DNA from: Buxus sempervirens | Lineage: Eukaryota; Streptophyta; Magnoliopsida; Buxales; Buxaceae | Assembly (NCBI GenBank): GCA_947561395.2 | Contig: OX387190.1 | Coordinates: forward strand, 30,684,858 to 30,748,857 | Reading direction: 5' to 3' | DNA: 64,000 bases | Shown: positions 29,874 through 56,156 of the stretch, piece after piece | Numbering within the stretch: position 1 is the stretch's first letter | Layout: every line of letters begins with the position of its first letter | Notes under the pieces: generated by a model | Database searches by the model: none | What the model was told of the DNA's origin: nothing | Seen by the model: the letters and a program-made list of their open reading frames with translations, nothing else | Made by a program: the position numbers and the translations under genes

Positions 29874-30204
29874 TAATTGGAACCAATTACAAGCAGAGAG
29901 CAAAAAGACCCACCAATTGCACCTTCTGAGATTTTTGTATAATCAATTGCACTTTGCAAGGATTAGATGGATGATTTTTGAAAAAAGAATTGATTGTGGA
30001 AGATTTGCTAAGAAATCCCTCAGCTTAAGGGCCAAATCTTCCTCTCTCTTCTCACTGAGCACTTGTGGGCTATGAAGTGAGATTTGAGACAAAATTTTTT
30101 AAACAAAAGTGGGTAAGGTGACAATCCTTGCAACTTACAATTAATATAAACATTAATCTCCTAAAAATTGTGAGAAAATGATAAAAATATGCTTTTTTGG
30201 CTCC

Positions 30205-30306
30205 GCCCGTATTTGGCTTACGGACAGGTCCTGCCCGTAGAGGGTTCACGGGCGACTGGGACCGTAGTACGTTCACGGGCGTCTGATGCCCGTACTGTTT
30301 TTACGG
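30205..30306. promoter_or_regulatory. GCCCGTA/TACGGGC array upstream of the PMD-like gene
   Basis: Half-sites GCCCGTA, TACGGAC, GCCCGTA, CACGGGC, GACCGTA, CACGGGC, GCCCGTA and TACGG alternate with spacers of 7 bp (one of 6). The array precedes a pyrimidine-rich leader (30310-30650) and a candidate 5'UTR intron donor (AG-GTAAGTG, 30653). It probably is the promoter array of the gene starting at 31578. Confidence 0.82.
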
Positions 30307-35175: not shown

Positions 35176-37289
35176 CCTAGGGCCCGCTCATATTTGGTAC
35201 TATTCTGGCTGGCCTGCGCCGATCAGTGAGCGGCCTCTCTACATCCAGAGGGGCTGGAGTTGGGTGCAGGTTCTTCTGGCCCTTCTTGCAGGTGAAATGT
35301 TTATTTCTTTTCTTTTTTCTCTCTTTCTCTTTTCCTTATCTCTCATTTTCTATTCCTCTAACTCTTTTCTTATTTTTGTAGTTTTTTGCTAGGGTTTATA
35401 TACCCTATTTCCGCCCTACCTCTACGATACCTGAGGAGACGTATCCCATGGCACTTAGATGGTGTCATGTAGAGCACGACTCTGAAAAGAGTCGTCCCAG
35501 GTCCGCCCGGGCCCACTTGGACAGGTTGTACCGGTCTGAGGTAATCTTCTTTAATTCCTCTATTTCTTCTTTTCTTTTCTTCCTGGATCACATATCTGAT
35601 GTCTTGTTCTGTTTTTCAGCTATTTGTCCCCAGGATGGAGGACATTCATGAGGTGCTAGCCCTGCAGGCAGCCAGAGATGATGCATTTGTCCCTGACCAG
35701 AGACGACAGAGATACCAATTCTTTATTGGTCAGCTGGGCAGCATCTGGTATTGCGGCGAGCGCTTCTTCTTTCAGCATGTGGGAGAGCCACGGATTCCTG
35801 CCATCCCGCCAGATACTACTCCTTTCTATCCTCCTATGCCTGTTGATCCTGCCCAGTTCTTGGATTGGACTGAGGCAGAGACATTATTGGAGGAGGGTGA
35901 CTATGATGCCTGGTTCAGGCGATCTTCTGTTGGGTGCCTCATGTCACCCATGCCTGTCCGTGGCGGAGTCACGGAGATAGGAGGGGTAGTGATTAGGGCC
36001 TATGACACTACGGTATGCTTTCTTCTTTTGTGATCTTCTATTTCTATTTCATCTGTCCTTAGCATTTTTCTGACTTCTTTCTTCTCTATTTCAGGAGGCT
36101 CAGTTGGCAGAGATCCGGTCTCGCTATGCTGATCTAGAGCGCCAGCGTGACGCCGCGATCGCCGAGCGGGATGCCCTCTATATTACCATCTCAGATCTCC
36201 GGGGGCAGCTAGCCAGAGCCCAGGGCCAGGAGGGTCCATCTGATGTACATGATCAGGCGGGTCCATCTGATGCACAGGACCAGGCGGGTCCATCTGATAC
36301 TCAGGTTAATTTCTTCTTTTATTTCCATTCCTGCTTTTGTATTTGTTTGTCTTGTTCTGACTGAATTTTTCTCTTAGTTTCAGGAGTACACAGCTGGTCC
36401 CTCTTCACCTGCTTCACCCGTGCCTATGCATTTCCGGGATGAGGTGTTTTCTGTGGCACGGGTGGAGTTCGTGACGTCTCCTAGTCCAGAGGAGGTTCCT
36501 GCAGCAGAACCCGAGGTCGAGGCTGATATTGTACCTGCTACTGAGGACGTGCCAGAGTCTGCCCCAGTAGCTGAGACGGCTCCTGCTACATCTGCTGATG
36601 TTGATATGGATTCGGCTGTGGATGCCGCTGTGGTAGAGCCTACCGTGGAGACTGCCGTGATGGAGGAGGCTACAGCTGATCCTGTAGAGCCCGAGGTGGA
36701 GATGACTGCTACTGAGCCTGTGGAGCCGGAGGTTGATGTACCTGGGACATCTGCTCCTGCTGGTCCTGTTAGTCCTGATATGGAGGATGCGGAGGTGACA
36801 CATGCTGCTGTTGATCCTTCTGCGGATTCTTCCCGTACAGAGTCTGATCCCGATTCTACGGGATATGTAGATACTTCAGGGTACGTCCCTCCTGATCATC
36901 CCACTGCTGGCCTTGTGCCTTTATATATGTGGCATGATATTCAGTCTGTTTTGAGCAGGATGACGCGTAGCACGGCCCGTAATGTTGTGCGGCATGTCTT
37001 TGAGCGCCGGCGATCTACAGGCCATGGTCGAGGCAGAGGACGAGGCCGTGGCCGTAAGAGCGGACCTGCATGGCCATTAGATTAGGATTCTTCCATGTAC
37101 CTTTGTATTTTTTTGCAAAAGTGATGTAAACATTCATATATATAAAAGAAGTTTGTTTTATTTCCATTTGTATTCTTTCTTCTTTATTTACAGTATTTAT
37201 TATCTGATGAATGTTAAAACAGGGACAGGTGAAGCTTAGGGAAACCAAAGAAATTAAAAATTCCCATTTTTTTTGCATTTTTTCGAAGG

Positions 37290-37419
37290 AACCGTACTTA
37301 TACTACGAGCAGGCTGTGCCCGTAAAGTTATTACGGGCGTGTGCTGCCCGTGAAATTTTCACGGTCAGGCGTGTCCGTGATTCCTATACGGGCGAGCCTT
37401 GCCCGTAATATAATTACGG
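37290..37419. promoter_or_regulatory. GCCCGTA/TACGGGC array upstream of the DUF7745-like gene
   Basis: About nine half-sites alternate in orientation with 7-bp spacers (one of 6), ending about 25 bp before a TATA box (CTATATAAAC, 37443-37452). The array falls between the 3' end of the PMD-like gene and the start of the next gene on the same strand. Confidence 0.88.
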
Positions 37420-37442
37420 AATTTACTGTCTTACGATTTTTT

Positions 37443-37452
37443 CTATATAAAC
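37443..37452 (+). promoter_or_regulatory. TATA box of the DUF7745-like gene
   Basis: CTATATAAAC lies about 90 bp upstream of the ATG at 37543. That leaves room for a short leader and fits a normal plant promoter. Confidence 0.75.
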
Positions 37453-37542
37453 TTCTAGGGAACATCATTGTGACACTTTTATTAATTGAAAAACTCCCTG
37501 AGCACGTCTTTTCTCGCTTTCCTTGGCTTCTTTGGCGCTTCC

Positions 37543-39334
37543 ATGGCTTCCCCTACGCCGCTTTCTCCTGCCTTTGAATCTCCTCCTGCAAGACAACCTG
37601 TTAGATCAAAACCTCCTAATCTTACCAGGTACAATATTGTGGATTCCTTTTATGATAGATGGGTTAACTCCATGACCCTTGATGAGGAGATTCGTTGGGA
37701 TTCCATTCACTTAGGGCATATCCTACACCTCCCTAAAATTCCCTTTAAGTGGGAAATCATTGAAGCTTTGATAGGCCATTGGGTACCTGAGCTGAATCTC
37801 TTCCGTTTTGATGACAAAGAGATGACTCCCACCATAGAAGAGATTGAAACCATCCTTGGCCTTAGATTTTCTGAAAAAGTTGTGAACCCACCCCTAAAGC
37901 TTAGTTATAAAAAAGAGGCTTCCACTTTCCTGGGTATAGGGAAGAAGGACTTAGGAAATTCTGATGCACTATTGACCTTGTCCAAGACCTTTTTGACTGA
38001 AAAACTTCTGAGGAGTAATGACAAGGACTCTAGGTTTAATGCATTGACCCTGATAGTGGTCAATCAGCTGCTTTTTCCACGGGGTGATGACCAGGTTGAC
38101 TTGGCTCTCATCTCAGTTATCTGTCAGGTTAGGGAACGCGAGAGGTTGGCCCCTATGATCCTAGCAGAGATATATCAGGCTCTTACTGATTGTTATTTCA
38201 GGAAGAAGAAACGCTTCCTTGCCTGCGCCCCTATCCTACAGGTAAAATATGCATGTATTTTTTTCTTCTATTTTTTTTTTCTATTCTTCCTTTCCTTTCT
38301 TTTTTTTTTTCTTTTCTTCTTCTTCTCTTTTTTTTTTTTTTCTTCTCTTTTTTTTTTTCCTTCTTCCTTTTTTCTTTTTTTTTCTTTTTCTTCTTTTTTT
38401 TCTTTTTGGAAATAAATTAAAATACTCCCTTTTTCTGCAGCTTTGGTTGCTTGACCATCTTAGCCAGGTAGAAGAAATAACTCGCCGCTTCTTTCCAAGA
38501 TTGAAAGTTCCTGTTTTGATGAGCAATAGGGGATGTCCTAACATCCAAGGTGGCAAGCAAGGCTGGTTCACTTTCTTGGGTACTCTCCAGGATGATCAAG
38601 TGAGATGGCCTGGCACTTCTCAGCCTACTCCAGAGACAGTGATTAGCTTTAGGGATAAAAATTTTCTGGCCCTAGCAGGCTTGAAATCTGCTGTTCTCTA
38701 TCTTCCTTTGAGGGTTCTTCGGCAATTTGGAGCGACCCAGGGAATTATGATTCCCACAGGTTATGAGAGCTTTATAGGGCCACTTACTTCAGCCACCATG
38801 GGGCTAAATGCTCAATTAATGAAAGAGTGGTCCTATGTTTGCTTTCTGCGGGGTCCAGTCTTTTCTGAGTCCCATGTGAAGGACTACCACTTCTGGATCA
38901 AGGAACAGGTGCAGAGTCATGCCCCAGTACCAGAGGATCCTCCTGCAGTTCTTCCTCCTACTTATGAGGACATTCTGGAGTCAGAAAGGGCAACTCATAA
39001 GCGGCTTCAACAAATATGGGTACGGGAGGCTCAAGAACTTAGGATAAAAGTCCTTGTTCTGGAGAGGAAGCTTGAAGAGCAGAAGTCTGGCCGCATTGCC
39101 ATAGAGAAGAAACTTGAAGAACAAAGGCAGGCTCGTCGCTTTGAAGTCCGTGTGATGCGGAAGAAGTATCAGGATTCCTTGGCTGACCTTAGGGCGTTGA
39201 AGAGCAAGCTTTCTTTTTCAGATGAGGTCATCTCCTTTTTGAGTGATCCTGATGCAGAGGGTGCTTCTGGAATCATTGCAACTCAGGCAGCTAGGATTAG
39301 GGAGCTTGAGGAGCAGTTAGGGAGTAGGGATTAG
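37543..39334 (+). CDS. DUF7745-like protein with coiled coil, antisense within element A
   Basis: Exons 37543-38241 and 38441-39334 (GT-AG intron, phase 0, 199 bp, almost pure pyrimidine) encode about 530 aa. I chose the ATG at 37543; the open frame upstream has only a TTG. The globular part (IRWDSIHLGHILHLPKIPFK, EMTPTIEEIETILGL, FNALTLIVVNQLLFP, LWLLDHLSQ, VLRQFGATQG) resembles the DUF7745 family, which is common in plant genomes and has no known function. Residues about 390-490 form a long coiled coil (LERKLEEQ, IEKKLEEQRQARR), suggesting oligomerisation. It is intact, has its own array and TATA box, and is transcribed opposite to gag-pol. Family assignment is from recall of its hallmark pattern. 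Confidence 0.75.
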
Positions 39335-39780
39335 ATTCTTTCATCATTTTTTTTTCTTTCATTTTTTTCCATACTTTTTTACAAAAGCAAACTCCATTAG
39401 TGGAAAGATATTAGATTTAATTCAAAAATAGGTTTTATATTATTGGCCTCAGAATTCTCAGATGCTTATAAAAACAGAAGTTTTATGAAAAAGTATTTGA
39501 TTTCTCATCATTGGCCAAAGTATAGTTTTTTTTTTTTTTTGAAAGCTGATCCAAAACACTTAATCACATATAATTAAAGGAATTAAAATCAGGTTGAATA
39601 ATGAAAAGGGTAGTCCAAGCAATAGGGAGAGACCAAATTTGTCTACCCCGTGACCCTTAGAATCATCCCCTAATGATTTTTCCTTCATGATTGGCCTTGC
39701 TAATCTGCCCAGTTTCCAGTGCTCATGCTGATTTGAAACTTAGACCCCATGATCAACTCAACCCTTGATTCTTTTTTTTT

Positions 39781-39811
<31 letters not shown>

Positions 39812-40324
39812 CTTTTTGCCCTTCTTGCCCCTAGTGCCAATTACGGTTTTCACTAGGGTTGGCCTCTGCATTCCGTCATCACCAATCTTACTCTGAAAGT
39901 TGAATGAATATACTAAAATCACCGAGGTCTTAATAATAGGACGAAACAAAGGCTAGGTTCGGTTTATGAAAGAAAAGGTATTAAAGGCTCAAAATTTTCT
40001 AAGTGTGAAAATGGGTCAACTGGACTTACAGTCATGGTGAATTCCATCCCATTCCTCTTCTTTTGTATTTGGCATTTATTTGCCCCTATTTTTTCTTCTT
40101 CTTTTTTTTTTTTTTCCTTTTTTTTTTTTCAAATTTTTTCTTTTTGCCCCTATTGGCCTTGCCCTTATTGGCCTTGCCCTTATTGGCCTTGCCCCAGTAT
40201 AAGGCTGTAAGTCCAGTTTGGGTTTAACAAAAAAAGACGAACAGGCTCAAATTGGTTTGACTAAGGATTCAAATTTTGGGATATAAAGAACAATGGCCTC
40301 AGATCATTTCCTAGTAATATTCAT
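39335..40324. other. Spacer between convergent pol and DUF7745-like gene
   Basis: Pyrimidine tracts lie at about 39768-39818 and 40090-40145. A 15-bp TTGGCCTTGCCCTTA unit is repeated about three times at 40151-40197. Degenerate copies of a block containing GGACGAAAC and AAAGGCTCAAA occur near 39936-39990 and 40230. The same block is found at 58998-59250 in the family B element, so this is a shared 3'UTR feature. No gene seen. Confidence 0.6.
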
Positions 40325-43300
40325 TCATGGAAAATATCTCTTTACTGTATCAGAGTTGATTGGCTCAGGAAAATCCTTCCCATCCATTTCTGTTAAGATG
40401 AGAGCACCCCCTGATAGGACCTTCTTGACCACATAAGGTCCTTCCCAATTTGGTTTAAACTTTCCACGAGGATCTTCCAAAAAGGGTAAAATCTTCTTTA
40501 ATACCAAATTTCCTTCTTGGAAAGTTCTGGGCTTCACCTTTTTATTGTAAGCCCTGGCCATCCTCTTACGATATAATTGGCCATGACTAAGTGCCTTCAA
40601 ACGTTTTTCTTCTATTAAATTGAGTTGATCATGTCTAGACTGTATCCATTCAGCTTCTTCTAATTCTGCTTCCATTAGCACTCTTAGTGAAGGTATTTCC
40701 ACTTCCACTGGTAAAACTGCTTCCATTCCATAGACTAAGGAGTATGGGGTTGCCCCTGTAGAAGTCCGGATTGAGGTTCTGTAAGCATGTAGAGCAAGTG
40801 GCAGCATTTCATGCCAATCTTTAAAACTCACTACCATCTTTTGAATAATCTTCTTTATATTCTTATTTGCTGCTTCCACTGCCCCATTCATCTTTGGTCT
40901 GTAAGGCGCTGACTTGTGGTGGGTAATCTGAAATTGTTCACACATCTTCCTCATGTCTTTGTTCTTAAGGTTTGAAGCATTGTCTGTTACTATGGCACTT
41001 GGCAAACCATAGCGGCAAATGATGTTGTGCTTCAAAAACTTAAGAACATGGCTACTCGTAATGTTTGCATAAGAAGCCGCTTCTACCCACTTGGTAAAAT
41101 AATCGATTGCTACAAGTATAAACCTGTGTCCATTTGATGCCTTTGGAGAGATCATTCCAATGACATCTATACCCCACATAGAAAAAGGCCACGGAGATGT
41201 CATACTGTGTAATTCACTTGGGGGTGCATTCTTGTTATCTGCGTACACTTGGCATAAATGACACCTTTTAACGTGCATATAGCAATCATGCTCCATAGTT
41301 GACCAGTAATATCCCAATCGCAGGATCTTCTTGGCAAGCATATGCCCATTCATATGGGGTCCACACACTCCTCCATGTACCGTTTCCACTATCCTTTCTG
41401 ACTCAGTCTTTGCAACACATCTAAGTAGTATATCATTGTGTGATCTTTTGTACAACTGCCCACCACTTAGTAAGAACTGTCCTGCCAGCCTCTGTATTGT
41501 TCTTTTCTCTGTAGAGGTGACATTTTCTGGTAAAGTTCGATCCTTTAGGAAATTCTTAATGTCTTGAAACCATGGCACTTCTTCTTCTGGGATTTCTTCT
41601 AAAACAAGGCAGTAAGCTGGTTCATCTCTGACTTCAATTTCTAATGGTCTAATATCAACCCCTTCTGGCATACTGACCATTGAAGCCAATGTTGCTAAAG
41701 CATCTGCAAACTGGTTTTTGGCCCTTGGCATATAATTGAAGGAAATTCGAGTAAATTTATTGCTTATTTCTTCCAAATACTGGTGATAAGGGATCAATTT
41801 GTGATCCTTGGTTTTCCATTCACCAGTTGTTTGGAAGATGATAAGACTCGAATCCCCATATACGTCAAGTTCCTCTACTTCATGATCTAAGGCTGCTTGT
41901 AACCCAATTATGCATGCTTCATACTCTGCTATATTGTTCGTGCATTGGAACCTTAACTTCACTGCGATCGGGATATGTGCCCCATCTGGCTTGATCAATA
42001 CAGCCCCTATTCCATTTCCATTCATATTGGCGGCCCCATCAAAAAACATTTGCCATGAGCTTTCACCTTCTTCCTCTTCAGCAAACAGGATTGCCTCATC
42101 AGGGAAGTTGGTCTTTAAGGGTTGGTATTCTGGTAAAGGGTGTGCAGCCAAGTGATCTGCAATGGCTTGACCCTTAATGGCCTTTTGTGTGATATAGGTG
42201 AGGTCAAATTCAGAGAGCAACAACTGCCACTTTGCTGTTCTGCCAGTTAAAGCTGGTTTCTCAAATAGATACTTCAAAGGGTCCATTCGGGATATCAATA
42301 AGGTGGAATGACTAAGGAAATAGTGCCTTAGTCTCTGAGTTGCCCATACTAAAGCACAACAAGTCTTTTCTAAAGGGGAATACTTTACTTCATATTCTGT
42401 AAATTTCTTACTCAGGTAGTAAATCGCCCTCTCCTTTCTGCCTGTATCGTCATGCTGTCCTAAGACACACCCCATTGATGTCTCCAAAACAGACAAGTAT
42501 AGGATTAGTGGCCTTCCTGGAGTTGGTGGTACTAGCACAGGTGGGTTTAATAAGTATTCCTTTATTGTGTCAAAGGCTTCTTGGCACTCATCATTCCAGA
42601 CTGTCGGGTTATTCTTTCTTAAAAGTTTGAAAATTGGTTCACAGATAGCGGTGAGCTGTGCTATGAACCGGCTTATGTACTGAATCCTCCCAAGAAAACC
42701 CCGAACTTCCCTCTCGGTTCTGGGTGATGGCATTTCAATGATGGCTTTAGCTTTAGCTGGGTCAATCTCAATTCCCCTTCTGCTTACTATAAAACCCAAT
42801 AATTTTCCTGATGTAGCCCCAAAGACACACTTAGCAGGGTTAAGCCTTAGACTGTATTTCCTAAGCCGGTCAAATACCTTCTTCAAGTTGATCAAGTGGT
42901 CTTCTTCCTCACATGATTTGGCTATCATATCATCCACATAAACCTCCATCTCCTTATGGATCATATCATGGAATAAGGCTGTCATGGCCCTCTGGTAGGT
43001 TGCCCCAGCGTTCTTAAGTCCAAATGGCATGACAGTGTAGTGGAAGGTACCCCAAGGGGTGATAAAGGCTGTCTTCTCTTGGTCTTCCTTAGCCATCTTA
43101 ATCTGATTGTATCCAGAAAACCCGTCCATGAATGAGAACAGGCTATGTACAGCGGTGTTATCCACCAAGATGTCTATGTGTGGAAGTGGAAAATCATCCT
43201 TTGGACTTGCCTTATTCAAATCTCTATAATCTACGCACATTCTGACCTTTCCATCCTTCTTTGGTACTGGCACTATATTTGCAAGCCATTCGGGGTATGT

Positions 43301-43951
43301 GGACACTGCTAAGAATCCAGCTTGGAATTGCTTAACCACTTCATCTTTAACCTTCAATGTCCATTCAGGTTTTAACCTTCTCAGTTTCTGCTTAACTGGC
43401 TTAGAGTCTGGTAGAATGGGTAACCTGTGCACCACCATATCTGTGTCTAACCCCGGCATATCCCAATACGACCATGCAAACACATCTTCATAATCAGCCA
43501 AAAATCGTATCATTTCATCCCGCTGTACCTCAGATAGACATACCCCAATCTTCACTATTTTTGGGTCATCTTCGGTCCCTAGGTTGATTGATATGGTCTC
43601 TTCGATATTGGGTTGGACCCCCTTTTCATGACGCTCTAATTGATATGTGATTTCTATTGGAACGTCGTCTTCTTCGTCCTCGGTCTCTTCTTCAACCCCC
43701 ATTAGGTCAAAGTCGAGCTCAAGGTCGAAGTCATACTCATCCTGATCCAATTCCGTTTGCTTATATGGTTCATAAATGGTTTGGACCTTTTTGAAAACTT
43801 TATCTTTTCTAGAAAAAACTGAAAAATCTTTTTGTGTTATTTGAGAGCCTTCTACAAAATCTTTCCCTGAAGACGAAGGCTCATTAAAACCTTCAGGAAA
43901 AGGGCATTCCACTAATGGAGTTTTTTTTTGGAAGCCATGTCTGTTTGCCAA
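40325..43951 (-). CDS. Element A pol: RT, RNaseH, archaeal-type RNaseH, integrase
   Basis: The frame is open for 1,208 codons. RT motifs include WLANIVPVPKKDGKVRMCVD, MPFGLKNAGATYQ and YVDDM (about residue 335). A retroviral-type RNaseH follows. A second RNaseH (about residues 635-760: FFDGAAN, NIAEYEA, YGDSSL, NQFADALA) has the D-E-D-D set of the archaeal-type domain found in Tat elements. The integrase has an H-H-C-C zinc region (about 855-905) and D, D, E at GIDVIG, VTDNAS and GAVEAAN. No chromodomain is present; the protein ends KRYFP. The reported start is a TTG; expression is more likely by -1 frameshift from the gag frame, which it overlaps by 40 nt. It would copy and insert element RNA. 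No damage is visible. Confidence 0.95.
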   Translation of the reverse strand: MANRHGFQKKTPLVECPFPEGFNEPSSSGKDFVEGSQITQKDFSVFSRKDKVFKKVQTIYEPYKQTELDQDEYDFDLELDFDLMGVEEETEDEEDDVPIEITYQLERHEKGVQPNIEETISINLGTEDDPKIVKIGVCLSEVQRDEMIRFLADYEDVFAWSYWDMPGLDTDMVVHRLPILPDSKPVKQKLRRLKPEWTLKVKDEVVKQFQAGFLAVSTYPEWLANIVPVPKKDGKVRMCVDYRDLNKASPKDDFPLPHIDILVDNTAVHSLFSFMDGFSGYNQIKMAKEDQEKTAFITPWGTFHYTVMPFGLKNAGATYQRAMTALFHDMIHKEMEVYVDDMIAKSCEEEDHLINLKKVFDRLRKYSLRLNPAKCVFGATSGKLLGFIVSRRGIEIDPAKAKAIIEMPSPRTEREVRGFLGRIQYISRFIAQLTAICEPIFKLLRKNNPTVWNDECQEAFDTIKEYLLNPPVLVPPTPGRPLILYLSVLETSMGCVLGQHDDTGRKERAIYYLSKKFTEYEVKYSPLEKTCCALVWATQRLRHYFLSHSTLLISRMDPLKYLFEKPALTGRTAKWQLLLSEFDLTYITQKAIKGQAIADHLAAHPLPEYQPLKTNFPDEAILFAEEEEGESSWQMFFDGAANMNGNGIGAVLIKPDGAHIPIAVKLRFQCTNNIAEYEACIIGLQAALDHEVEELDVYGDSSLIIFQTTGEWKTKDHKLIPYHQYLEEISNKFTRISFNYMPRAKNQFADALATLASMVSMPEGVDIRPLEIEVRDEPAYCLVLEEIPEEEVPWFQDIKNFLKDRTLPENVTSTEKRTIQRLAGQFLLSGGQLYKRSHNDILLRCVAKTESERIVETVHGGVCGPHMNGHMLAKKILRLGYYWSTMEHDCYMHVKRCHLCQVYADNKNAPPSELHSMTSPWPFSMWGIDVIGMISPKASNGHRFILVAIDYFTKWVEAASYANITSSHVLKFLKHNIICRYGLPSAIVTDNASNLKNKDMRKMCEQFQITHHKSAPYRPKMNGAVEAANKNIKKIIQKMVVSFKDWHEMLPLALHAYRTSIRTSTGATPYSLVYGMEAVLPVEVEIPSLRVLMEAELEEAEWIQSRHDQLNLIEEKRLKALSHGQLYRKRMARAYNKKVKPRTFQEGNLVLKKILPFLEDPRGKFKPNWEGPYVVKKVLSGGALILTEMDGKDFPEPINSDTVKRYFP

Positions 43952-46900
43952 ACAAACGCGGCTTCAAAAGTAAGGGGAGTTTCCTCCCAATTATTCAGAA
44001 TGAAAGAATCTGGGGCAGGGATACAAGCCTGCTCCTCGAGCTCATGGTCTGCATCAGAAATCACCAGTACTGGGTGAGTTGCATTGCCTGCTTCTTCGGT
44101 AGGGCCAGTTCCAGATGGAACTTCTACTGCAGCCCAATCAATAAAAGGTAGCTCCTCTGCTACTTTTTCTTGGTTGCCTTCTGTCATGGCAAAGAATGCC
44201 CCTACGTCCTCAGAAAAATCCTGCTTTTGTTCTGTCTGTGGCCCAGGCCCACCAGATGCTTGAGGAGGTGGAACCCATGGTTGTATTATGGAGGATTTGG
44301 GTTTCTGGAATGGGTTGACATTGTAGTATGGAGGTTTAGACTGATCCTCAGGAGGAGACAGCTGAATCATGTGAGACAGCTTAGGAAAAGTTTCCCTGAT
44401 GTGCGGGAATTTCATAGCTTCTATCTGCCCCTGTCTTCTCCATTTCCTTGGCTTGGACCCCAATCCTGCTCTGTGAACCATCTTCTTAACCTGAACTGGT
44501 TCTATCTTTCCTTGTAGGTTAATCCCCAGACCTTTTCCAGGGTGAAAATGGTACTTTTCTAATACATTTTTGACCATTTTTTCAGCACAGGTCAATTTTC
44601 CTTCTTTTTGCTGATACCCCCCAGGTATATAGTTCACAGCTTCAAATTGAAAAGAGTGAAACGCCATTTTATTTGCTGTCATTTCCGTGTTAATACAGGG
44701 TACATCAGGGGACCACATGGGGGGAACCAAGTTTTCGGCCAGGACGGTAATCACCTTTTGCCCTCTAATGTATTTGACTCTCTGGTGGAGGGTAGATGGT
44801 ATGGCCCTAGCCGTATGAATCCACGGCCTTCCTAGGAGTAGGTTGAAAGCCGCAGGTATATCCATCACTTCAAATGTGATGTTGAAAATATACGGTCCAA
44901 TTGTGACCGGCAGTTCAACCTCCCCTAGGGAGTGTGTTTTAGAGCTGTCAAATGCTCTTATAATTCTTCCATTTTGTTTTATTTTGTTTCGCTCCAGATT
45001 GAGCTTAACAAAGGTTACTAATGGACAGACATTGAGGGCTGACCCATTATCAATCAAGACCCGGGCTATCATGCAGCCCTTACTGAGCACAGCAATGTGC
45101 AATGGATCCACATGGTGGTACCCTGCTGGACTAATTTCAGTTTCAGAAAAGGTTATGACATTATGAGATAATATTTGCCCAACCATCCGGCCTAGTTGGT
45201 CTGGTTCAATGTTTTTAGGCACATGGGCCCCCTGGAGTATCCTTAACAAGGAGTCCCTATGTTTTTCTGAATTTAACAATAGGCCCAGTATTGAGATCTG
45301 GGCAGGGACTTTGTTCAACTGTTCAATAACATTGAACTCACTCTTTTTTATTACCTTCATGAGGTCAGCAGCCTCACTGTTAGTTACCTGAGGTGCCTCT
45401 TCCCCTACTTTGGCCTTGCCTTTATTTCTTTCTTCTTCTTTATCCTTCTCGGTTTCTTTCTGTTTTTCTTCCACCCCTACACTCTTTCCTGACCTCATCA
45501 TAAGGTTCACTTCTTCCTTGTTTTCAGCTGCAGGGCATGTAGTAGTAAATGCTTCACTGTAGTTCCATGGTACAGCCGATTCAATGTAGGAAGGCTTAGG
45601 GACATTCACTACTAATGGGGGAAGTTTGGACTTGGCGATGGAAGTCTGAGTAATAGGAACATTAACAACCCATGGAGGAAGTTGTTTTGGTTGGGGGTTT
45701 GCAGAAGTGACTGATGCACTAAGGGGGTCACAATTTATGACCAATGGTGGCTTAGACTGAATGGGCGGAGTAAAAGTGGATGAATGGCAATTAATGACCA
45801 AGGGTGGCTTGGTGATGTTCATCTGGGCCATGAGGGATGAGACCCGGTCCAAAGATGAGCTAATGTTCTTTGCAGCACTATCATTCCCCTTTGAAATCAT
45901 GTTTATTTCTTTGCCTTCACTTCTCTTGTCAAAATATACTTTGACTGTTGTCCCTATGGGAGCAATTAATTGAGATGGGTCAAAGGTTATTTTGTCAGTA
46001 GAGATGACTCCTATGACATTAGATGGGCCTGCCCCGTGATGCTGAGGCAGTGGTTTTTGTCCAATATCTGTTCTTGGAGGATTGGGCGCCCCTGTATTGA
46101 AAGACAGGGTATTCTGGTCTAGTAAATCCTGAATGGCATGTTTCAAAGGCCAGCACTTGTCTGTAGGGTGCCCAGGTGCACCCATATGGTAATCACAAGT
46201 GGTGGAGGGGTCAAAATTTCTCCCCTTAGATGCATTCGGATTAGGTTCTCTTAAGGTGATATACCCTCCTTGCAATAAAGTGGGCAGCAATTGAGAGGGA
46301 GTCATTGGAATAGGGGTGAAAACCCTATTTCTCCTTGCTGCAAAATAGGCGTCCTTTTCCTCTTTGGTAAAAACCCTTTTTTGGTCTGAAGGTGCTGCTG
46401 GAACATTGACCCTCATAGGGGCCTGGGTGGATGGAGATGGAGTAGGAAAATGAGCAAGTACGTTGATTTGTATGGGCTTGTTAGGGCCAGATGGTGGCTG
46501 TACCATGTTTACCTCACCCTCCTTCTTGTTCCCATTCTTTTTTGTCCCGCTTCCTTTCTTTAGGTTGGGGTCCTGGTGGCTAACCATGGCAGAGTGGTCA
46601 ATTATCTTACCTGACCTTATTCCATCTTCAATTCGGTCAGCCACCTGAACCAAGGCTGCAAAATTAGTGGTGGTCTGACCCACCAAGTGACTGTAGAATG
46701 GTTGACCCAAAGTGCTTATGAAGGTAGAAATCATTTCCTGTTCTAGCATGGGTGGCCTGACCTGAGAGGCTGTCTCCCTCCATCTCTTGGCATATTGCCT
46801 TACAGTCTCTTCCCTTCCTTTGCTCATTCTCATAACGTCGTACCTATCTGGCATAATCTCTGAATTGAACCGGTATTGAGCCAGGAAGGCATCGGCTAGG

Positions 46901-47550
46901 TCCTTCCATCTTTTGATCTTCCCATGGTCCAGAGTGGCGAACCATCTTAATGCGGTTCCTGTCAGGCTCCTTTGGAAAAGTTGGATCAAGATACCCTCAT
47001 CCTGCCCGAACTGGCATAGGGCACCGCAATACAACTTTAGGTGGCTCATGGGGCAACCAGTGCCATCATACTTGTCCAAGTCTGGGCACTTAAACTTAGC
47101 CGGCAGGTTAACATTGGGGTATAGGCACAGGTCTTCAAAATTGGTGCCTCCAAAGTTGTTTACCCCTTTGACTTCCCTAAGTTCATCTTGGATCATTTCT
47201 AGCTTATGCATGAACTTTCTTTCAACCTCTTCCCTTATCCTTTCCTTTTCCTTGGCCTTGTTTGATTCAGCTATTTCATCCCTGGTCAGTATAGGTTCAG
47301 GGGTGGGTTCATAGACGGGTTCAGGAGTTGGTTGCACTGGAGGTGGAACGTTGACTTGGGGTGGAGGTGCAGGGTTGGATGTGGATGCCTGGTTCTGGGC
47401 CTGCATTTGTTGGGCTTGCACTTGTTGGGCCTGTACTGACAGTATGTTCTCTAGCATGTTCTCTAGCATTCGGGCTAGTCCTACCACTTGTTCTTGGAGT
47501 AGAACAACATCTGGATGAGGAGCATCAACTTCATCTTCAATGGGATTCAT
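43912..47550 (-). CDS. Element A gag-protease with G-patch
   Basis: The first in-frame ATG is at 47550 (MNPIEDEV); the frame is open to 47613, where a CAG acceptor-like site (47604) follows a pyrimidine run. Domains: coiled N-terminus; capsid (NLPAKFKCPDLDKYDGTGCP, LTGTALRWF, VRQYAKRWRE); C-H-H-C knuckle-like motif (CDYHMGAPGHPTDKC); Pro-rich linker; aspartic protease (VLIDNGSALNVCP); and a G-patch (HPGKGLGI, HRAGLGSKP). It forms the particle and processes the polyprotein. The stop at 43912 follows an A9 run that is the candidate -1 slip site into pol. G-patch motifs are known in some retroelements and bind nucleic acid or helicases. Confidence 0.92.
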   Translation of the reverse strand: MNPIEDEVDAPHPDVVLLQEQVVGLARMLENMLENILSVQAQQVQAQQMQAQNQASTSNPAPPPQVNVPPPVQPTPEPVYEPTPEPILTRDEIAESNKAKEKERIREEVERKFMHKLEMIQDELREVKGVNNFGGTNFEDLCLYPNVNLPAKFKCPDLDKYDGTGCPMSHLKLYCGALCQFGQDEGILIQLFQRSLTGTALRWFATLDHGKIKRWKDLADAFLAQYRFNSEIMPDRYDVMRMSKGREETVRQYAKRWRETASQVRPPMLEQEMISTFISTLGQPFYSHLVGQTTTNFAALVQVADRIEDGIRSGKIIDHSAMVSHQDPNLKKGSGTKKNGNKKEGEVNMVQPPSGPNKPIQINVLAHFPTPSPSTQAPMRVNVPAAPSDQKRVFTKEEKDAYFAARRNRVFTPIPMTPSQLLPTLLQGGYITLREPNPNASKGRNFDPSTTCDYHMGAPGHPTDKCWPLKHAIQDLLDQNTLSFNTGAPNPPRTDIGQKPLPQHHGAGPSNVIGVISTDKITFDPSQLIAPIGTTVKVYFDKRSEGKEINMISKGNDSAAKNISSSLDRVSSLMAQMNITKPPLVINCHSSTFTPPIQSKPPLVINCDPLSASVTSANPQPKQLPPWVVNVPITQTSIAKSKLPPLVVNVPKPSYIESAVPWNYSEAFTTTCPAAENKEEVNLMMRSGKSVGVEEKQKETEKDKEEERNKGKAKVGEEAPQVTNSEAADLMKVIKKSEFNVIEQLNKVPAQISILGLLLNSEKHRDSLLRILQGAHVPKNIEPDQLGRMVGQILSHNVITFSETEISPAGYHHVDPLHIAVLSKGCMIARVLIDNGSALNVCPLVTFVKLNLERNKIKQNGRIIRAFDSSKTHSLGEVELPVTIGPYIFNITFEVMDIPAAFNLLLGRPWIHTARAIPSTLHQRVKYIRGQKVITVLAENLVPPMWSPDVPCINTEMTANKMAFHSFQFEAVNYIPGGYQQKEGKLTCAEKMVKNVLEKYHFHPGKGLGINLQGKIEPVQVKKMVHRAGLGSKPRKWRRQGQIEAMKFPHIRETFPKLSHMIQLSPPEDQSKPPYYNVNPFQKPKSSIIQPWVPPPQASGGPGPQTEQKQDFSEDVGAFFAMTEGNQEKVAEELPFIDWAAVEVPSGTGPTEEAGNATHPVLVISDADHELEEQACIPAPDSFILNNWEETPLTFEAAFVWQTDMASKKKLH
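43921..43929 (-). promoter_or_regulatory. A9 slippery run, candidate -1 frameshift site
   Basis: In sense orientation nine A residues follow TCC in the gag frame, seven nt before the gag stop. Pol is open in the -1 frame across the site. A poly-A run of this length fits both ribosomal and transcriptional slippage. Confidence 0.6.
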
Positions 47551-47859
47551 GGCTCGAGCTCTTGATCTGGTTACAGGAGCTATGATTGCGAGTGTATTAG
47601 TACCTGGATTCAAGATAAAGGAAAAGATATCAATGCTTAATTAATCTCATTTACATGCCTAAGAATGCCTATGTGCAAGCTGGGTGAACACGAGTTTGGA
47701 TTTTTCTTTATTTGCTTCTTTTTTCTTTTTTTCTTTTTTTATTTTATTTTTGTTTTATTTCTTCTTTTTTTTTTTTGTTTTTTTTTGGTTTTTTTTTTTT
47801 TTGAATTGAATTGTTGGAATATTCTAGGGCTTCCAACAGGTCCCACAAAAGAGAGAAAG

Positions 47860-48645
47860 ATCTGAAATTCAAAGGCTTTCAGAGGCCCGGGGGGGTTTTG
47901 AAAAAAGGTCTGAAATTCAAAGGGTTTCAGAAGCCCAGGGATATTTTTGGAAAATGTCTGAAATTCAGAGGCTTTCAGAGGCCCAAGGATTTTTGATAAA
48001 AGTCTGAAATTCAAAGGCTTTCAGAGGCCCAGGTTTTTTTTTTTTTTGATAAAAGTCTGAAATTCAAAGGCTTTCAGAGGCCCAAAAGTTCTGAAATTCA
48101 AAGGCTTTCAGAGGCCCAAAAGAAAAAGGTCTGAAATTCAAAGGCTTTCAGAGGCTCAAAAGTTCTGAAATTCAAAGGCTTTCAGAGGCCCAAAAGAAAA
48201 AGGTCTGAAATTCAAAGGCTTTCAGAGGCCCAAAAGATCTGAAATTCAAAGGCTTTCAGAAGCCCGGAAGAAAAAGGTCTGAAATTCAAAGGCTTTCAGA
48301 GGCCCAAAAGTTCTGAAATTCAAAGGCTTTCAGAGGCCCAAAAGAAAAAGGTCTGAAATTCAAAGGCTTTCAGAGGCCCAAAAGATCTGAAATTCAAAGG
48401 CTTTCAGAGGCCCGGAGTTTTTTTGAGAAAAAGTCTGAAATTCAAAGGCTTTCAGAGGCCCAGGGTTTTTTTGAGAAAAAGTCTGAAATTCAAAGGCTTT
48501 CAGAGGCCCAGGGTTTTGAAAAAGTCTGAAATTCAAAGGCTTTCAGAGGCCCAGGATTTTTTGAAAAATCTGAAATTCAAAGGCTTTCAGAGGCCCAAGA
48601 GTTTTGAAAAAGTCTGAAATTCAAAGGCTTTCAGAAGCCCAAGGA
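47860..48645 (-). repeat. Tandem array of about 19 hairpin units in the element A leader
   Basis: Each unit carries TCTGAAA, a 9-nt loop TTCAAAGGC and the complementary TTTCAGA, followed by GGCCC and a variable linker (AAAAGAAAAAGG or longer). Units recur every 33-53 bp. Arms are conserved in nearly all copies. Small ORFs here are repeat artefacts. Confidence 0.92.
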
Positions 48646-48649
48646 ACCT

Positions 48650-48669
48650 TTCTCTATTTTTTTTTTATT

Positions 48670-48701
<32 letters not shown>

Positions 48702-50149
48702 TGTTTTTTTTTTTTGAAGCATTTTATTCAAACTTGTTTCCCTTTATCATTATTTAAAGGTTAAATGAACATTTTAGTGGGAAAAACTGATTAAAGTTGA
48801 ATATTCCGAGAAAATCGTATACACAGTACGGTCCAGCCTTGCCCGTATTCAAATTACGAGCAAGCTGTGACCGTATGGAAAACACGGGCGAGCTTAGCCC
48901 GTATAACTAATACGGGCAAGCCCAGCCCGTGTACTAAATGCGGTTTTACGGAACTCTGTTATATTTTTCTCAGTTTTTTCATGGTTTGGTCACTTTCATT
49001 GTTCATCCAAACGTACGGTTCACCCATTGCAGAGCTTCTAAACTGTCCCAAAGTGGACTTTGGCCTTTTTGTTAAAACACATGCCTAGGAGGGCACATGT
49101 ACCCTCCAAATTGACATCATACTCCAGAATTTGATACCCTTTTGTTGCCTCTTGTGTGTACATAGGGTAGGATTGATTCTAAACAGAGTTTGAAACTCTT
49201 CCTATGGGCTGCACCAACTTTAGAAAATATGCATATTTTGGGACCAATTTTATCCCAAACCAAAGGGCACCATGACACCCCTATGACATGAAAATAATGC
49301 AAAACAATAGGATTACCTTGTTACCTTGTTTACCTTGAATATAGCATCCGCATTATGCCCTGGTTTGTAAGCCATGCACACGGCCTTCCCACAATCATAC
49401 AAACCCATATTCCCACGTAATTGTGTAATTTAGCCAAAAACGTGTAACTCCACCTTCAAGCGTAGGGGTTTTGGGTTTTGGCTTAATGGCAACTTAGCAC
49501 TCAAGCCTAGTGATGACCAGAATCCCAGATCCACGTTATCATCACATCATTAGCTCAAAGTTCTAAGGTGAATGTTTTCACTTTCGCTTTCCGAAGTATC
49601 GACCTCGTTGCGCCAAGCTACACACATTTGGGTTCAACTTCCTATAGGTTAAGGGTAGGCCGTGTAAAAACAAAAGGTGCACAGTGCATTGTAAAAATAG
49701 GGTGCATTCACAACGTCCCAAACCCTTGCCACTCTTTTCGCAGCCATGCATAAACAAACCAAGGCATAATAGGAAAGCATATTTAAAATAAACAAGTAAA
49801 TAAAGCAATCCTATAGCACCCAAAACATGCTCATAAAAAAAATCATCTATCATGCAAACATATGATCATGTTATACACCCAAAATCATCATGGAGATCAT
49901 GCTGCAAATTAACATATGCTATCCTAAAAATATAGCAAGAAATAAGCATATTTCAGCAAAACGGACCTCCCCTACGCATGTTTGTAGAAACAATCCTATA
50001 AATCAAAATTAAGCATGTTTCTACCCCCATGAATTCCTAAGCAATAATTCAGATTTAAAACATACTCAACATGCTTAAGAACACAAAATAGCAAGCAAAT
50101 CAAAAAATCAAAACATGAACAAAAACACCTAAAGGCTGAAATCCACAAA
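48650..50149. other. Element A leader, non-coding
   Basis: It contains T-rich and TA-rich simple sequence (48655-48720), the half-site array at 48827-48945 and otherwise AT-rich sequence without a gene. The region just after the PBS (49750-50149) is A-rich in sense-complement. Confidence 0.6.
48827..48945. promoter_or_regulatory. Cleanest 14-bp phased half-site array (leader of element A)
   Basis: Nine half-sites (TACGGTC, GCCCGTA, TACGAGC, GACCGTA, CACGGGC, GCCCGTA, TACGGGC, GCCCGTG, TGCGGTT) are separated by eight spacers of exactly 7 bp, with strict alternation of orientation. Total length is 119 bp, 17 x 7. Confidence 0.92.
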
Positions 50150-50167
50150 TCCCCAGCAGAGTCGCCA
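50150..50167 (-). other. Primer-binding site of element A, tRNA-Arg type
   Basis: The reverse strand reads TGGCGACTCTGCTGGGGA, two nt from the LTR end. It complements a plant tRNA-Arg 3' end (TCCCCAGCAGAGTCG plus CCA). Ogre-type elements are known to use tRNA-Arg. Confidence 0.85.
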
Positions 50168-50169
50168 AT

Positions 50170-51992
50170 TGTGAGACATGGGAAAAAATCAATCTAATGA
50201 TTTCATCAATCATCACACGGGATTAAATTAAACAAAGAGTCGCCACCATTCAATTTAGGTGTGAATGGACACCAAAATATTAAATAAGCACAAAAGGCAA
50301 TTTTAGGGCAAAATATCCCTCCTAAAAAAAACAACCAGAGATGGGTAAGGGGATTAGGTTATGAACAGGGGAAGGTGTTAGGCACCCCTATTCATCCACA
50401 CAAGGTGGTTGCCAGGTATTGTTCATGTTTAAAATAAAGGAAAAAGCTTGCTATAAAAATCACACAAAATCACAAAAAAAGGCAAAAATATATGGTTTTT
50501 TCATATGAATAGTCTGATTGATCCAGAACTATCAAACATGATCATACCATTCCTAGGGTTTCATGATCAAAATAAAATTGAGATAAAATCAGATAAAATT
50601 AATTTAAAGTGAAAAATCCAAAAATCTGGCTTCAAGTCAAATTCTAGAAATCTAGAAAAATATGATTTTTATAAAATATTTCAAAATTGAACTTGAATAG
50701 TCCAGGACATAGATAAAACCCAAATTTCACATTAAATCCGAAAATAAAGACCAAAAATATCCACATTGATGAAAAACACCAAAAGGGGAGAATTTAGACC
50801 GTAGGGTCTTCTCTCAATAATGAAAAACAATTTAAAAAAACATCTCATGAAACCCTAGAATTTATTTTCAGGCTTCTGGATTCAGATCTACCATATTGAT
50901 CATGATAAATCCAAGATCTTAGCCTAAAACCACAAAAATCACGAAAACAGTGCTATAGGTGCAAAAGTGGCAAAAATCCAAATTTTGTCAAAAAGTGGGG
51001 ATCTCATGCTATAAACATCATAGATTCATGTCATTCATTCAGATATATCATAAAAAGCATTAAAACATGATCAGGATATTCAAAACAACCACATCTCACA
51101 GATTAGAGCACATGGGAGTCTACCCTACGGATCCACCTGTTCTCTTTTCCCCTAGTTCTCTCTTCACGTTTTACGGCTAGAGAGACTCTTGAGGTACTTA
51201 GAGATAGGTTTGGGTACACAAACACAATCACAGGCTTTATTCTATAAAAAAAAAAAGAAAAAAACAGATATGGGGTTCTATTCTAGGGATCCACCTGTTC
51301 CCCTTTCCCCTAGTTCTCTCTTCACGTTTTACGGCTAGAGAGACCCTTGAGGTACTTAGAGACAAGTTTAGGGATACAAAAACAGATATGACCTTATTCT
51401 ACTGCAATAGAGATGATCCTATTACTTCTAGAATTGAAGGCAGAAAATAAAAAGGGATAGGGGACTTACCTGGATTGAGCAGGCAGAGCAGCAGGGATTC
51501 CTTTCTCTTCTCTTGGAGCTTCTTAGAATTCCTTGACTTCAAAATTTCGTGGCCCTTAGCTAGAGGAATGAGCCTCTATTTATAGACACACCCAGGGGCA
51601 AGGCTGGTCCAGAAGGATATATCCTGATTCTCAGGATAGAGTGAAATATAGAGATGATGCCCATCCATAGCCATCCAAGGTGACTTCAGCGAATAAAAGA
51701 CATAATCCGCTCGTTTAAAGATATATTGGACTTCAAATAAAGCTCGGAAATCGAGAGGATGACAAAACTTGCACGTGTCTTTAATGCCCGTAAATACACT
51801 ACGGTCCAACGGGGACCGTATAGATACTACGGGCGCGCCTGCCCGTAGATATTTTGCGGGCAAGATCGGCCCGTGAAGAAAATACGGGCAAAGCCTGTTC
51901 ATTCTATTTTTAGGCTTTTTTGTCCTGTTTTAAGCTCTAATTACATGTTTTTATTATTTTCTCATTTGGTAGTGCAATTTGGGGTGTCTACA
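50170..51992 (-). repeat. 5' LTR of element A
   Basis: It has the same length and layout as the copy at 28032. The promoter TATA box is near 51576-51585 on the reverse strand, with the half-site array at about 51786-51890 upstream of it. This LTR drives gag-pol transcription leftward. Confidence 0.95.
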
Positions 51993-53753: not shown

Positions 53754-54496
53754 TGTGCGCACCTAAATTTGACCTAGATCGCACACCGGGCGCACCTTCA
53801 GTGCGTGCCACGGGACATTCGGAGTCGCCACTGCCTGAGAGTGCAGGCAGACACGGATTTACCCTATCCGGGTCTAAGTCTGGTCTGCGGCTTATTAGAG
53901 TTCTAGCTAAGTCCTCGGTTATGTCCGGGGAAGCCCTAAGGCACCCCGGCCCGCCCCGTCGGTTTGACGGGTCCCTCGGGTCTCCCTGGTTTTTGAGTCA
54001 AGTTCACCCTTCCTAGACCAGCATGCTACTTATTGAGTCTGACGGGGCCCTTTGGAGGTGTGGGTCCCTTTTTATTTGATTTTATCTTTTTATGGATTTA
54101 AATGGAGTGGGTCGGATCAGGGTCCTGTTGGAAGACCCGTGGGCTGCCATGGTTGGGCCTTAGGCCCAGTTGGGGTATTGGGTAACCCATTTGGTTATTT
54201 TATTAAGTTTTATATATTTACAATTTTAGTTTGGGCTTGATGGGCTTGGATTTGGCCCATTAGCCAAAGGTCAAGGGGCCCGGGCCTGTTTATTGAAAAC
54301 AGGCCTGGTATGGGCCAGTCAAAAGTGGGCCCCACAAATGGGCCAAAAGGGGGGTCTTGATGGGCCCATCTAGGCCCATAGTCCAAAATGGGCTTAAGAC
54401 AGCCCAAGTTGTAAAGGGGTCGGTTCAGGCCGGTTTAGGCCGGATTAAGTCCAATTGGACCGAAAAAATTACATTTTTCAAGTTACATTCATATTG

Positions 54497-54599
54497 GACC
54501 GTATTTTCTATACGGTCCACCTTGCCCGTGAATGAATTACGGTCTTCCTCGCCCGTGAAGAAAATACGGTCCTGCCCGGACCGGCCTGAGTTTACGGGC
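54497..54599. promoter_or_regulatory. Half-site array, family B LTR, downstream of TATA
   Basis: Half-sites GACCGTA, TACGGTC, GCCCGTG, TACGGTC, GCCCGTG, TACGGTC and a terminal TACGGGC alternate. Within-dyad spacers are 7 bp and between-dyad spacers 6 bp. Confidence 0.82.
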
Positions 54600-55393
54600 G
54601 CCTTTTGTTTTGCATTTTGGCCGCCGATTTTCTTCCGGATCTGTTCCGTGGCCTTTTTAAGTGTTTCGGTAGCTTCAACTGGGCTTCCAGATTCTTCATT
54701 TGTTTCATTTGGCTTAAAAAGCCACTTTTCTTTGTCTTTCCATGTTTCCCAAAAGCTCACTTTGCTTGTACTCCCACATGACCATTGTCAAAAGAGGAGA
54801 AGAGGGAGAGTACAAGAATGTAAGAGGTCCTTAAAAGGGAGTCACATCCCTCCTTGTCCGTAAGCAAAAAGAACTAATAAAGTATCTTAAACATTAGTTA
54901 AAATGTTTATTCTTAGCTTAAAGCATTCTTCTTTCTTTAAGAGGAATTTCCTCCATATTATGGAGTGTCCATCACCATGCAAAACAAAAGAAACAGGTGA
55001 GAGAGAAGTAGTAATGTAAAAGCATATTTAAATAGAATTAAATCCCAAATATATACATTACCAAAAGTATCCCTTTACTATTACCTTGTTCTTGATTATA
55101 TGTGATGGTGCTCCGGAAATTTTGACAGCGCTTCCGCGTCCTCCAAAGATTCTTAAGTTGGTTTTGAAAGGGGTTTGTTAGGATGCTATATTCAAAGGAG
55201 GGTTAGGGAAAGCTTGGGCATGGTTTTGGTAAGATAGGGGTATTTTGGGAACAAAAGAAGTTTGGGTTAGGGGTGGTGATAATTGGGCAGGGCTTAGCCG
55301 TGGAGAGCACCAAGAGGGAGAGGGGGTAGGCCAGGGGAGAGGGCTTGTTGAAATGAGGGGGGTGGCCTCTCTATTTATAGGCAAAATTTTCGT

Positions 55394-55470
55394 GCCCGTA
55401 TTTGAACTACGGGCATGCCTTGCCCGTACTTCAAGTACGGGCGTGCCTTGCCCGTAATTCAAATACGGGC
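55394..55470. promoter_or_regulatory. Perfect GCCCGTA/TACGGGC array, family B LTR
   Basis: Three identical dyads (GCCCGTA, 7 bp, TACGGGC) repeat every 28 bp with 7-bp linkers. No half-site deviates from consensus. It begins about 14 bp from the TATA box. Confidence 0.92.
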
Positions 55471-55560
55471 GAAAAACGAATATTTGCAATTATCGCAGAT
55501 TCTTCCGTACGGGACGCGTGTTCCGCCGTACGGCGACGCGTGTCTCCCTTCTAGAAGCGT

Positions 55561-55609
55561 GCCCGTATTTAAAATACGGGCATGCCCTGCCCGTAATGTA
55601 AATACGGTC
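55561..55609. promoter_or_regulatory. Second half-site array, family B LTR
   Basis: GCCCGTA, TACGGGC, GCCCGTA and TACGGTC with 7-bp spacers. Between this and the first array (55505-55545) lie CCGTACGG and CGACGCGTG palindromic words. Confidence 0.88.
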
Positions 55610-56156
55610 CCGCACGTTTTAAAAATGTGTGGATCTCAAACCTTTATTCAATTTGGTTTTTTGCAAGATTTACATTCGATTTTATGATTATTTTATTATA
55701 TAAACGAGATTCCTTTATTAAAATATTATTAAATACTTTTATCTTATTTATTTTATTGGTTTAGTCCATTTTTGCTGCCTTTTTGCCACATGGGCAGTTT
55801 TTCTAAAACTTCAACTGCTCATAACTTCTTCATCCGGTGTCCGATTTCAACAAACTTAGTGTCGTTGGAATCAGCTCGGAACCACCTATCCATTGGGATC
55901 AAGTTTGGCAGTTGAATTAGGGTTGAGCAAAAAGTCAACTTTTGCTTCTCCAAAAGTTTCACCGGGTCATAACTTCCTCATCCGGACCCCGATTCCAGCA
56001 AATTCAGTTGCGTTGGAATCGCGTCGAAATGCTCTTTTCAATGAGATGAAGTTTGATGGCCAAATTTACTTGAATCAAAAAGTCAATTTTTGACCCCCTC
56101 AGGGTTCGACTTTTCATTTTTCTTTATTTTGGGGGTGCAAAAATCAGGTGTCTACA

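Follow-up and report, generated by a model that had tools for sequence, protein, structure and literature searches.

Phased arrays of inverted half-sites as probable promoter modules of an Ogre/Tat-type Ty3 retrotransposon lineage in Buxus sempervirens

Clustered palindromic boxes upstream of retrotransposon promoters have been described for the Sireviruses, in which repeated motif (RM) boxes with a palindromic CGG-CCG core lie before the TATA box of the long terminal repeat (LTR) and before the ENV gene (PMC2829016). In Retand-like retrotransposons, antisense genes have been proposed as element regulators, with no known target named in the text available (PMC11963269), and gene23 of Grande has its own promoter (PMC7264820). 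The plant mobile domain (PMD) is found in 57% of Ogre elements (PMC6317226), and the mode of action of PMD proteins has been called unclear (PMC9899485). Here we describe a 64,000-nucleotide stretch of Buxus sempervirens DNA (the window, contig C12:30684858-30748857 of a 676.5-Mb genome) that contains a retrotransposon, element A, which is classed as Ogre/Tat-type from its pol domain content, together with LTRs of a second family, B. Both families carry arrays in which 7-bp half-sites alternate in orientation, and we think it likely that these arrays are proximal promoter or enhancer modules of an Ogre/Tat-type Ty3 lineage, which would dock a putative dimeric protein at sense and antisense promoters. 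The elements and arrays are listed below; the arrays and the nested solo LTR have no strand assigned.

28032..51992, minus strand: element A, Ogre/Tat-type Ty3 retrotransposon with reverse transcriptase (RT), RNase H, second RVT_3-type RNase H and integrase domains
28032-29854 (3') and 50170-51992 (5'), minus strand: LTRs of element A (LTR-A), 99.56% identical, with GGATT on both sides; boundaries set by eye
48827..48945: array of nine sites and eight 7-bp spacers, upstream of gag in element A
29648..29751: array in the 3' copy of LTR-A, near the start of U3; 8 half-sites, one 6-bp outward spacer
51786..51889: array in the 5' copy of LTR-A, counterpart of 29648..29751
30205..30308: array of 8 sites preceding the antisense PMD gene, with a single outward spacer of 6 bp; no copy comparison possible
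37290..37421: array in the antisense DUF7745 promoter; 10 sites, the last of which, TACGGAA, is degenerate; one 6-bp outward spacer
32625..35175: nested solo LTR of family B, carrying an array; near-identical flanks CCTGG/CCTAG, ends set by eye
33261..33365: array in the family B solo LTR; 8 half-sites, counterpart of 54497-54599
53754..56156, minus strand: LTR of the second, family B element (LTR-B), taken by eye as the 3' LTR from its polypurine side; inserted in a glycosyltransferase-like gene copy
54497..54599: LTR-B array in which two outward spacers are 6 bp long
55394..55470: array of 6 half-sites in LTR-B, immediately preceding the minus-strand LTR TATA box
55561..55609: array in LTR-B; 4 half-sites

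An initial annotation of this DNA had described, at 48827-48945, nine alternating half-sites related to GCCCGTA or its complement TACGGGC, with eight spacers of exactly 7 bp, and had listed comparable arrays elsewhere in the window. We re-found every one of these, and observed that eight of the nine sites lie within one mismatch of GCCCGTA/TACGGGC and that the ninth and last, TGCGGTT, is degenerate (3 mismatches). The strictly 14-bp phase ascribed to the arrays held for inward-facing pairs (GCCCGTA...TACGGGC), of which the window contains, with one LTR copy masked, 20 at 14 bp, none at 13 and one at 15; it gave way for outward-facing pairs, 14 of which are spaced at 14 bp and 4 at 13 bp. Since the inward spacer is rigid at 7 bp and the outward spacer is 7 or sometimes 6 bp, the arrays are best described as chains of 28-bp units, GMCCGTR-N7-YACGGKC-N6/7. 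They are real and far above chance: under the same masking, 34 pairs on opposite strands were spaced at exactly 14 bp, whereas 200 first-order Markov simulations gave 0.025 such pairs on average and never more than 2, and GCCCGTA occurs 29 times in the window against an expected 1.8.

The enrichment of 7-bp spacers that the initial annotation expected of a genome scan was found for the inward pair. When only perfect half-sites were counted, inward pairs occurred genome-wide 9 times at N6, 11,266 times at N7 and 4 times at N8, and outward pairs 7,417 times at N7, while a backward-read pattern control gave 0 for inward N6, N7 and N8 and for outward N7. Nor are the array units identical tandem copies with identical spacers, the outcome that had been named as speaking against the proposal. 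All of the 25 distinct stretches that we fetched by array patterns outside the window align to array positions of LTR family A or B. It should be noted that these stretches, which represent 27 loci (L001-L004, L035-L054 and L105-L107, with L002-L004 overlapping), all lie on contig C1, 22 of them in its first 8.8 Mb and hence at one chromosome end; 20 of the sites were picked from that 8.8 Mb, near-duplicate neighbours being omitted.

The composition of the unit was tallied over 53 half-sites at seven array positions in the window (a degenerate site of the 54497 array, GACCGGC, was given an arbitrary orientation in this tally). Position 5 is G in 53/53 half-sites, and positions 3 and 4 are each C in 51/53; position 2 is C in 36/53, A in 13/53 and T in 4/53, and position 7 is A in 42/53 and G in 10/53. 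The inward spacers are 7 bp long in 25/25 cases and 78% AT, whereas the 21 outward spacers (16 of 7 bp, 5 of 6 bp) are 44% AT, with G as the third base in 14 of the 16 that are 7 bp long. Thus the spacer sequence is itself non-random, AT-rich inward and GC-richer outward. A larger set of 38 arrays agrees with these seven positions in composition and spacing, although the scoring by which its arrays were listed favours 7-bp gaps. The observed/expected ratio of CpG is 1.17-1.53 in six arrays, compared with 0.44 for LTR-A and 0.77 for LTR-B. The half-site variant GACCGTA/GACCGTG is present at 6 of the 7 array positions and absent at 55394.

Half-sites that are inverted repeats of one another could in principle form a hairpin or cruciform in RNA or DNA. 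We compared spacer pairing with that expected from column composition, and obtained 0.40/0.44/0.28 versus 0.33/0.48/0.30 for inward spacers and 0.44/0.31/0.56 versus 0.35/0.24/0.47 for outward spacers. Complementarity of the spacers is therefore at most slightly above column composition, and the half-site arms (25 inward and 19 outward pairs) do not co-vary. By these criteria we rejected a folded structure as the explanation of the arrays, and consider its probability close to negligible.

The initial annotation had also noted that the spacers differ in sequence but keep their length, and had ascribed this to selection on spacing. In copies of the 48827, 37290 and LTR-A arrays, and more weakly in LTR-B, half-sites and spacer length are indeed kept while the sequence of the spacers drifts. 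For the 48827 position, in 30 rows comprising the window and the best 29 of 40 scored matches (from 1726 first-look candidates, hence not a random sample, and with L055, which is the window itself, excluded), changes were seen in 12/1,890 half-site cells (0.63%) as compared with 104/1,680 spacer cells (6.2%), with no insertions or deletions in the array; the three flanks had 42/3,210, 125/6,150 and 116/4,200 cells changed. The 37290 position gave 17/1,400 for half-sites versus 120/1,240 for spacers in 20 rows, again with no insertions or deletions, and 113/3,600 and 47/2,420 for its flanks; here 19 of 20 fetched copies were used, L090 having no 37290 position. Its diverged copy L106 differs at 6/70 half-site, 24/62 spacer, and 42/178 and 28/121 flank bases, and has one outward spacer of 7 rather than 6 bp. 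In the LTR arrays, half-sites and spacers were changed in 55/560 versus 138/480 cells (LTR-A, 10 rows, flanks 19.6% and 10.9%), 12/588 versus 30/490 (LTR-B at 55394, 14 rows) and 27/392 versus 44/294 (LTR-B at 55561, 14 rows). The two LTR-A arrays of the window itself differ by one A/G change, within the half-site at 29693 (TACAGGC in the 3' LTR, TACGGGC in the 5' LTR). When a 7-bp mask was shifted along the 14-bp period, the contrast peaked at the half-site phase, the best of 14 shifts, both for 48827 and for 37290-37372. In the aggregate, changes are 2 to 10 times rarer in half-sites than in spacers across five array positions (10 to 30 rows each), and, to judge from these comparisons of copies, selection maintains the sequence and spacing of the sites but lets the intervening letters drift.

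Changes in array length were examined in the LTR copies, relative to the common length. For the LTR-A array, L043 has gained and L049 has lost 28 bp. The 55394 array of LTR-B is 28 bp longer in L054 and 28 bp shorter in L039, L040 and L042, and has lost 77 bp in L037 and 66 bp in L001; the 55561 array is changed by -28 bp in L039, -3 bp in L040 and +1 bp in L001. Outward spacers additionally show single-base changes (6 or 7 bp). Whole-unit steps of +28 or -28 bp make up 7 of these 11 changes, which is what would be expected of a passive 28-bp minisatellite, expanded by slippage and functionless, and tandem arrays are common in Retand elements (PMC11963269). Yet the lower rate of change in half-sites than in spacers, the recurrence of the same geometry at array positions with no detectable flank homology, and the location of arrays before TATA boxes all argue against such an origin, which we disfavour and regard as highly improbable.

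TATA boxes of the sense and of the antisense side alike have arrays in front of them, a point that is absent from the initial annotation. Two of these boxes stand close to an array.

37443..37451, plus strand: TATA box CTATATAAA of the DUF7745 promoter, 21 bp after the last (degenerate) site of the 37290 array
55372..55380, minus strand: TATA box CTATAAATA of LTR-B, 13-14 bp past the last half-site in 14/14 rows

The 21-bp spacing to CTATATAAA was observed in 20/20 rows, with 0 changes in the 180 cells of the box, and the box is also kept in the diverged copy L106. In LTR-A, CTATAAAT lies about 200 bp downstream of the 29648..29751 array on the element strand, and the window and 6 of 7 further copies have a CTATAAA box 199-209 bp past the array, with none in L045; L107 also has the CTATAAA box, and the stretch from L105 stops at that point. 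Downstream of the PMD array comes a TC-rich leader. The leader of element A contains a long tandem array (47856-48645) with periods of 34-148 bp, which has the 48827 array on one side and gag on the other.

Several observations weigh against a role for the arrays as promoter modules kept by selection. In LTR-A, some 200 bp separate the array and the TATA box. For the 48827 array, which lies 1.28 kb upstream of the gag ATG, no clear TATA box was seen, and what follows it on the element strand, after about 130 bp, is just a (TA)n run. The nearest TATA-like string past the PMD array, at 31370, is more than 1 kb off. Of the 11 LTR length changes, 4 are not multiples of 28. The LTR-A half-sites (9.8%) are about as variable as one flank (10.9%) and below the other (19.6%), and thus show no clear reduction relative to the less variable flank. 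In LTR-B, half-sites and spacers do not differ in their proportion of variable columns (11/42 versus 11/35 at 55394; 18/28 versus 15/21 at 55561), and at 55394 the spacers (6.1%) are less variable than the flanks (10-13%). At 48827-48945, 37290-37421 and LTR-A (29648-29751), the spacers vary more than their own flanks. Finally, the copies compared are related to one another, so that cells are not independent, and were not sampled at random. Even so, a docking array for a dimer appears to be the best reading of the arrays.

In such a docking array, each 28-bp unit consists of two inverted 7-bp half-sites, GMCCGTR, separated by a rigid, AT-rich 7-bp inward spacer and joined to the next unit by a GC-richer outward spacer of 6 or 7 bp. 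A dimeric protein may read the inward 21-bp inverted repeat, and neighbouring dimers would then bind side by side. Because arrays lie before TATA boxes in both LTR families and at the DUF7745 gene, as well as upstream of the PMD gene, one trans-acting factor would co-regulate the sense gag-pol genes and the antisense accessory genes, presumably by activation rather than repression. Given the 11,266 exact inward pairs counted genome-wide, the arrays could also spread a ready-made promoter element through the genome.

The pol domains of element A (RVT_1, RT_RNaseH, RVT_3 and rve, by Pfam) lie in a single reading frame, and their order of RT, RNase H and then integrase is that of Ty3 elements. 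On the opposite strand, element A encodes a PMD protein and a DUF7745 protein.

31821..32624, plus strand: antisense PMD coding region (PF10536, E 3.3e-15), interrupted by the nested family B solo LTR
37543..38230, plus strand: start of the antisense DUF7745/PMD-like gene (ATG at 37543; PF24924, E 4.4e-21); exon end estimated

The interrupting insertion at 32625-35175 was suspected of being a DNA transposon from a 9-bp overlap; this was rejected, and we read it as a solo LTR because it has TG...CA ends and a near-identical 5-bp flank. Both antisense genes look to be under selection. The ratio of nonsynonymous to synonymous polymorphism (pN/pS) is 0.037 for the PMD exon in 30 rows, a value that is biased low because the copies were chosen as the best protein matches (the best 30 of 132 scored loci, from 3816 first-look candidates). 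For the first 132 codons of the DUF7745 gene, pN/pS is 0.087, with no stops, in 20 rows that were not chosen by that gene; as these copies neighbour PMD copies, they also lean to intact elements.

These genes raise the possibility of self-encoded control, a narrower form of the docking proposal, in which the PMD protein, the DUF7745 protein or both would bind the arrays and activate or de-silence the element in the manner of VANC. The low pN/pS of both genes is consistent with this, as is the occurrence of the same type of array in the DUF7745 promoter and in the LTRs. The arrays are found in non-coding parts, as is mainly so for VANC targets (PMC5735166), the antisense proteins of Retand (PMC11963269) and Grande (PMC7264820) have been suggested to act as regulators, and the frame at 38246-39334 has what looks like a long heptad-like stretch by which its product could dimerise. 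However, Pfam finds no known DNA-binding domain in either protein, and the low pN/pS may reflect other roles besides being biased by the choice of copies. We hold self-encoded control to be possible but rather unlikely. No solved structure related to the PMD protein was found at E 1, and a protein homology search in which 8000 candidates were scored found none at E 0.001, plants being perhaps poorly represented in the database. A link to the 'DOWN' motif of MAIN/MAIL1 was considered and dropped, the published site being CATGCAGTTT.

A closed circuit, in which an antisense PMD or DUF7745 protein binds the rigid 28-bp arrays both in the sense promoters of the LTRs and in the antisense promoter of its own gene, and so activates or de-silences copies in trans, including those of the second LTR family, seems to us unlikely. 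If it were true, this retrotransposon lineage would possess an equivalent of VANC, or of a retroviral transactivator that acts on response elements in the LTR. In the arrays, antisense-encoded regulators have a concrete candidate target whose sequence, spacing and position are defined.

The docking proposal could also be served by a host transcription factor for inverted half-sites at 7-bp spacing, which the element would exploit. Precedents are provided by the auxin response factors (ARFs), which act on inverted repeats spaced by 7 or 8 bp (IR7/IR8; PMC10690724), and by the BII boxes of Tnt1, through which defence-induced factors are exploited (PMC3316501). Also, several boxes of Sireviruses, whose GACCG/CGGTC core is similar, are found again in unrelated Ty1/copia elements (PMC2829016), a possible sign of a widespread host factor, and the GACCGTA/GACCGTG variant resembles the GACCG/CGGTC arms of several of those boxes, which may hint at a shared factor family. 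On the other hand, the ARF core TGTC/GACA was found in 0/53 half-sites, although one half-site/spacer junction in the 37290 array contains it, and a whole-word literature search for GCCCGTA or TACGGGC returned one unrelated paper and no plant motif (most subscription journals being outside its coverage). Control by a host factor only is a serious candidate, to which we would give not quite an even chance. The initial annotation knew of no named plant motif with this geometry; the inverted 7-bp spacing has a precedent in the ARF sites of plants, and clustered CGG-CCG palindromes upstream of a TATA box have one in Sirevirus LTRs.

Other features of the window are noted here for completeness. The repeat pair 552-1004/5844-6300, judged by eye, is probably the LTRs of another retrotransposon; within it, at 760-886 and 6044-6168, lies a 32-bp tandem array with a different palindrome (CCATGGCC-GAAT-GGCCATGG type), similar in architecture but with another motif. 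Reading frames at 13987-14862 and 6542-7285 contain a FAR1 DNA-binding domain and a BED zinc finger, respectively. Three related gene copies (17457-23407 and 52512-53753), the third of which ends at the family B insertion, are presumably UDP-glycosyltransferases, as judged by eye; the fragment 17755-18294, which was the only part submitted, had no Pfam match. After the LTR of the family B element, at 56973-58390, there are two large minisatellites with units of 34 and 41 bp.

In comparison with known systems, element A resembles Retand and Grande in being a Ty3 element whose antisense genes lie between pol and the 3' LTR (PMC11963269, PMC7264820). It differs in that most Retand clusters encode TRP28 (PMC11963269), rather than PMD and DUF7745 proteins, and in that the available text on these elements describes tandem arrays (Retand) and antisense genes but no phased regulatory array or motif (PMC11963269, PMC7264820). 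The Tnt1 BII boxes are likewise LTR boxes, which bind nuclear factors in that system, but have another sequence and belong to another class of element (PMC3316501). The VANC targets of VANDAL transposons are arrays of short motifs, mainly non-coding, that evolve by tandem repeat formation (PMC5735166). However, those of VANC21 are arrayed in one orientation, whereas the half-sites described here alternate in fixed phase; the motif is GMCCGTR instead of YAGTATTAY or the VANC6 motifs; and the element is a retrotransposon, whose cognate protein is putative (PMC5735166). ARF sites share inverted half-sites at a rigid spacing of 7-8 bp, which ARFs read as dimers, and the 11,266 inward pairs at N7 fit IR7; yet N8 yielded only 4 pairs although ARFs accept IR8, ARF sites need TGTCNN half-sites, and tiled 28-bp arrays are not described for ARFs in the text available (PMC10690724).

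The closest precedent is the RM boxes of Sireviruses (PMC2829016). Those boxes are separate short palindromes in Ty1/copia elements, whereas the half-sites here are 7 bp apart, tile at 14 bp, and belong to elements with the Ty3 order of pol domains; the extra gene is ENV in Sireviruses, and the extra genes here are antisense. In both systems, however, dyad-symmetric repeats with a CGG-CCG core, present in many copies and rich in CpG, cluster upstream of a conserved LTR TATA box and of an extra gene, and some of the Sirevirus consensus boxes contain GACCG/CGGTC.
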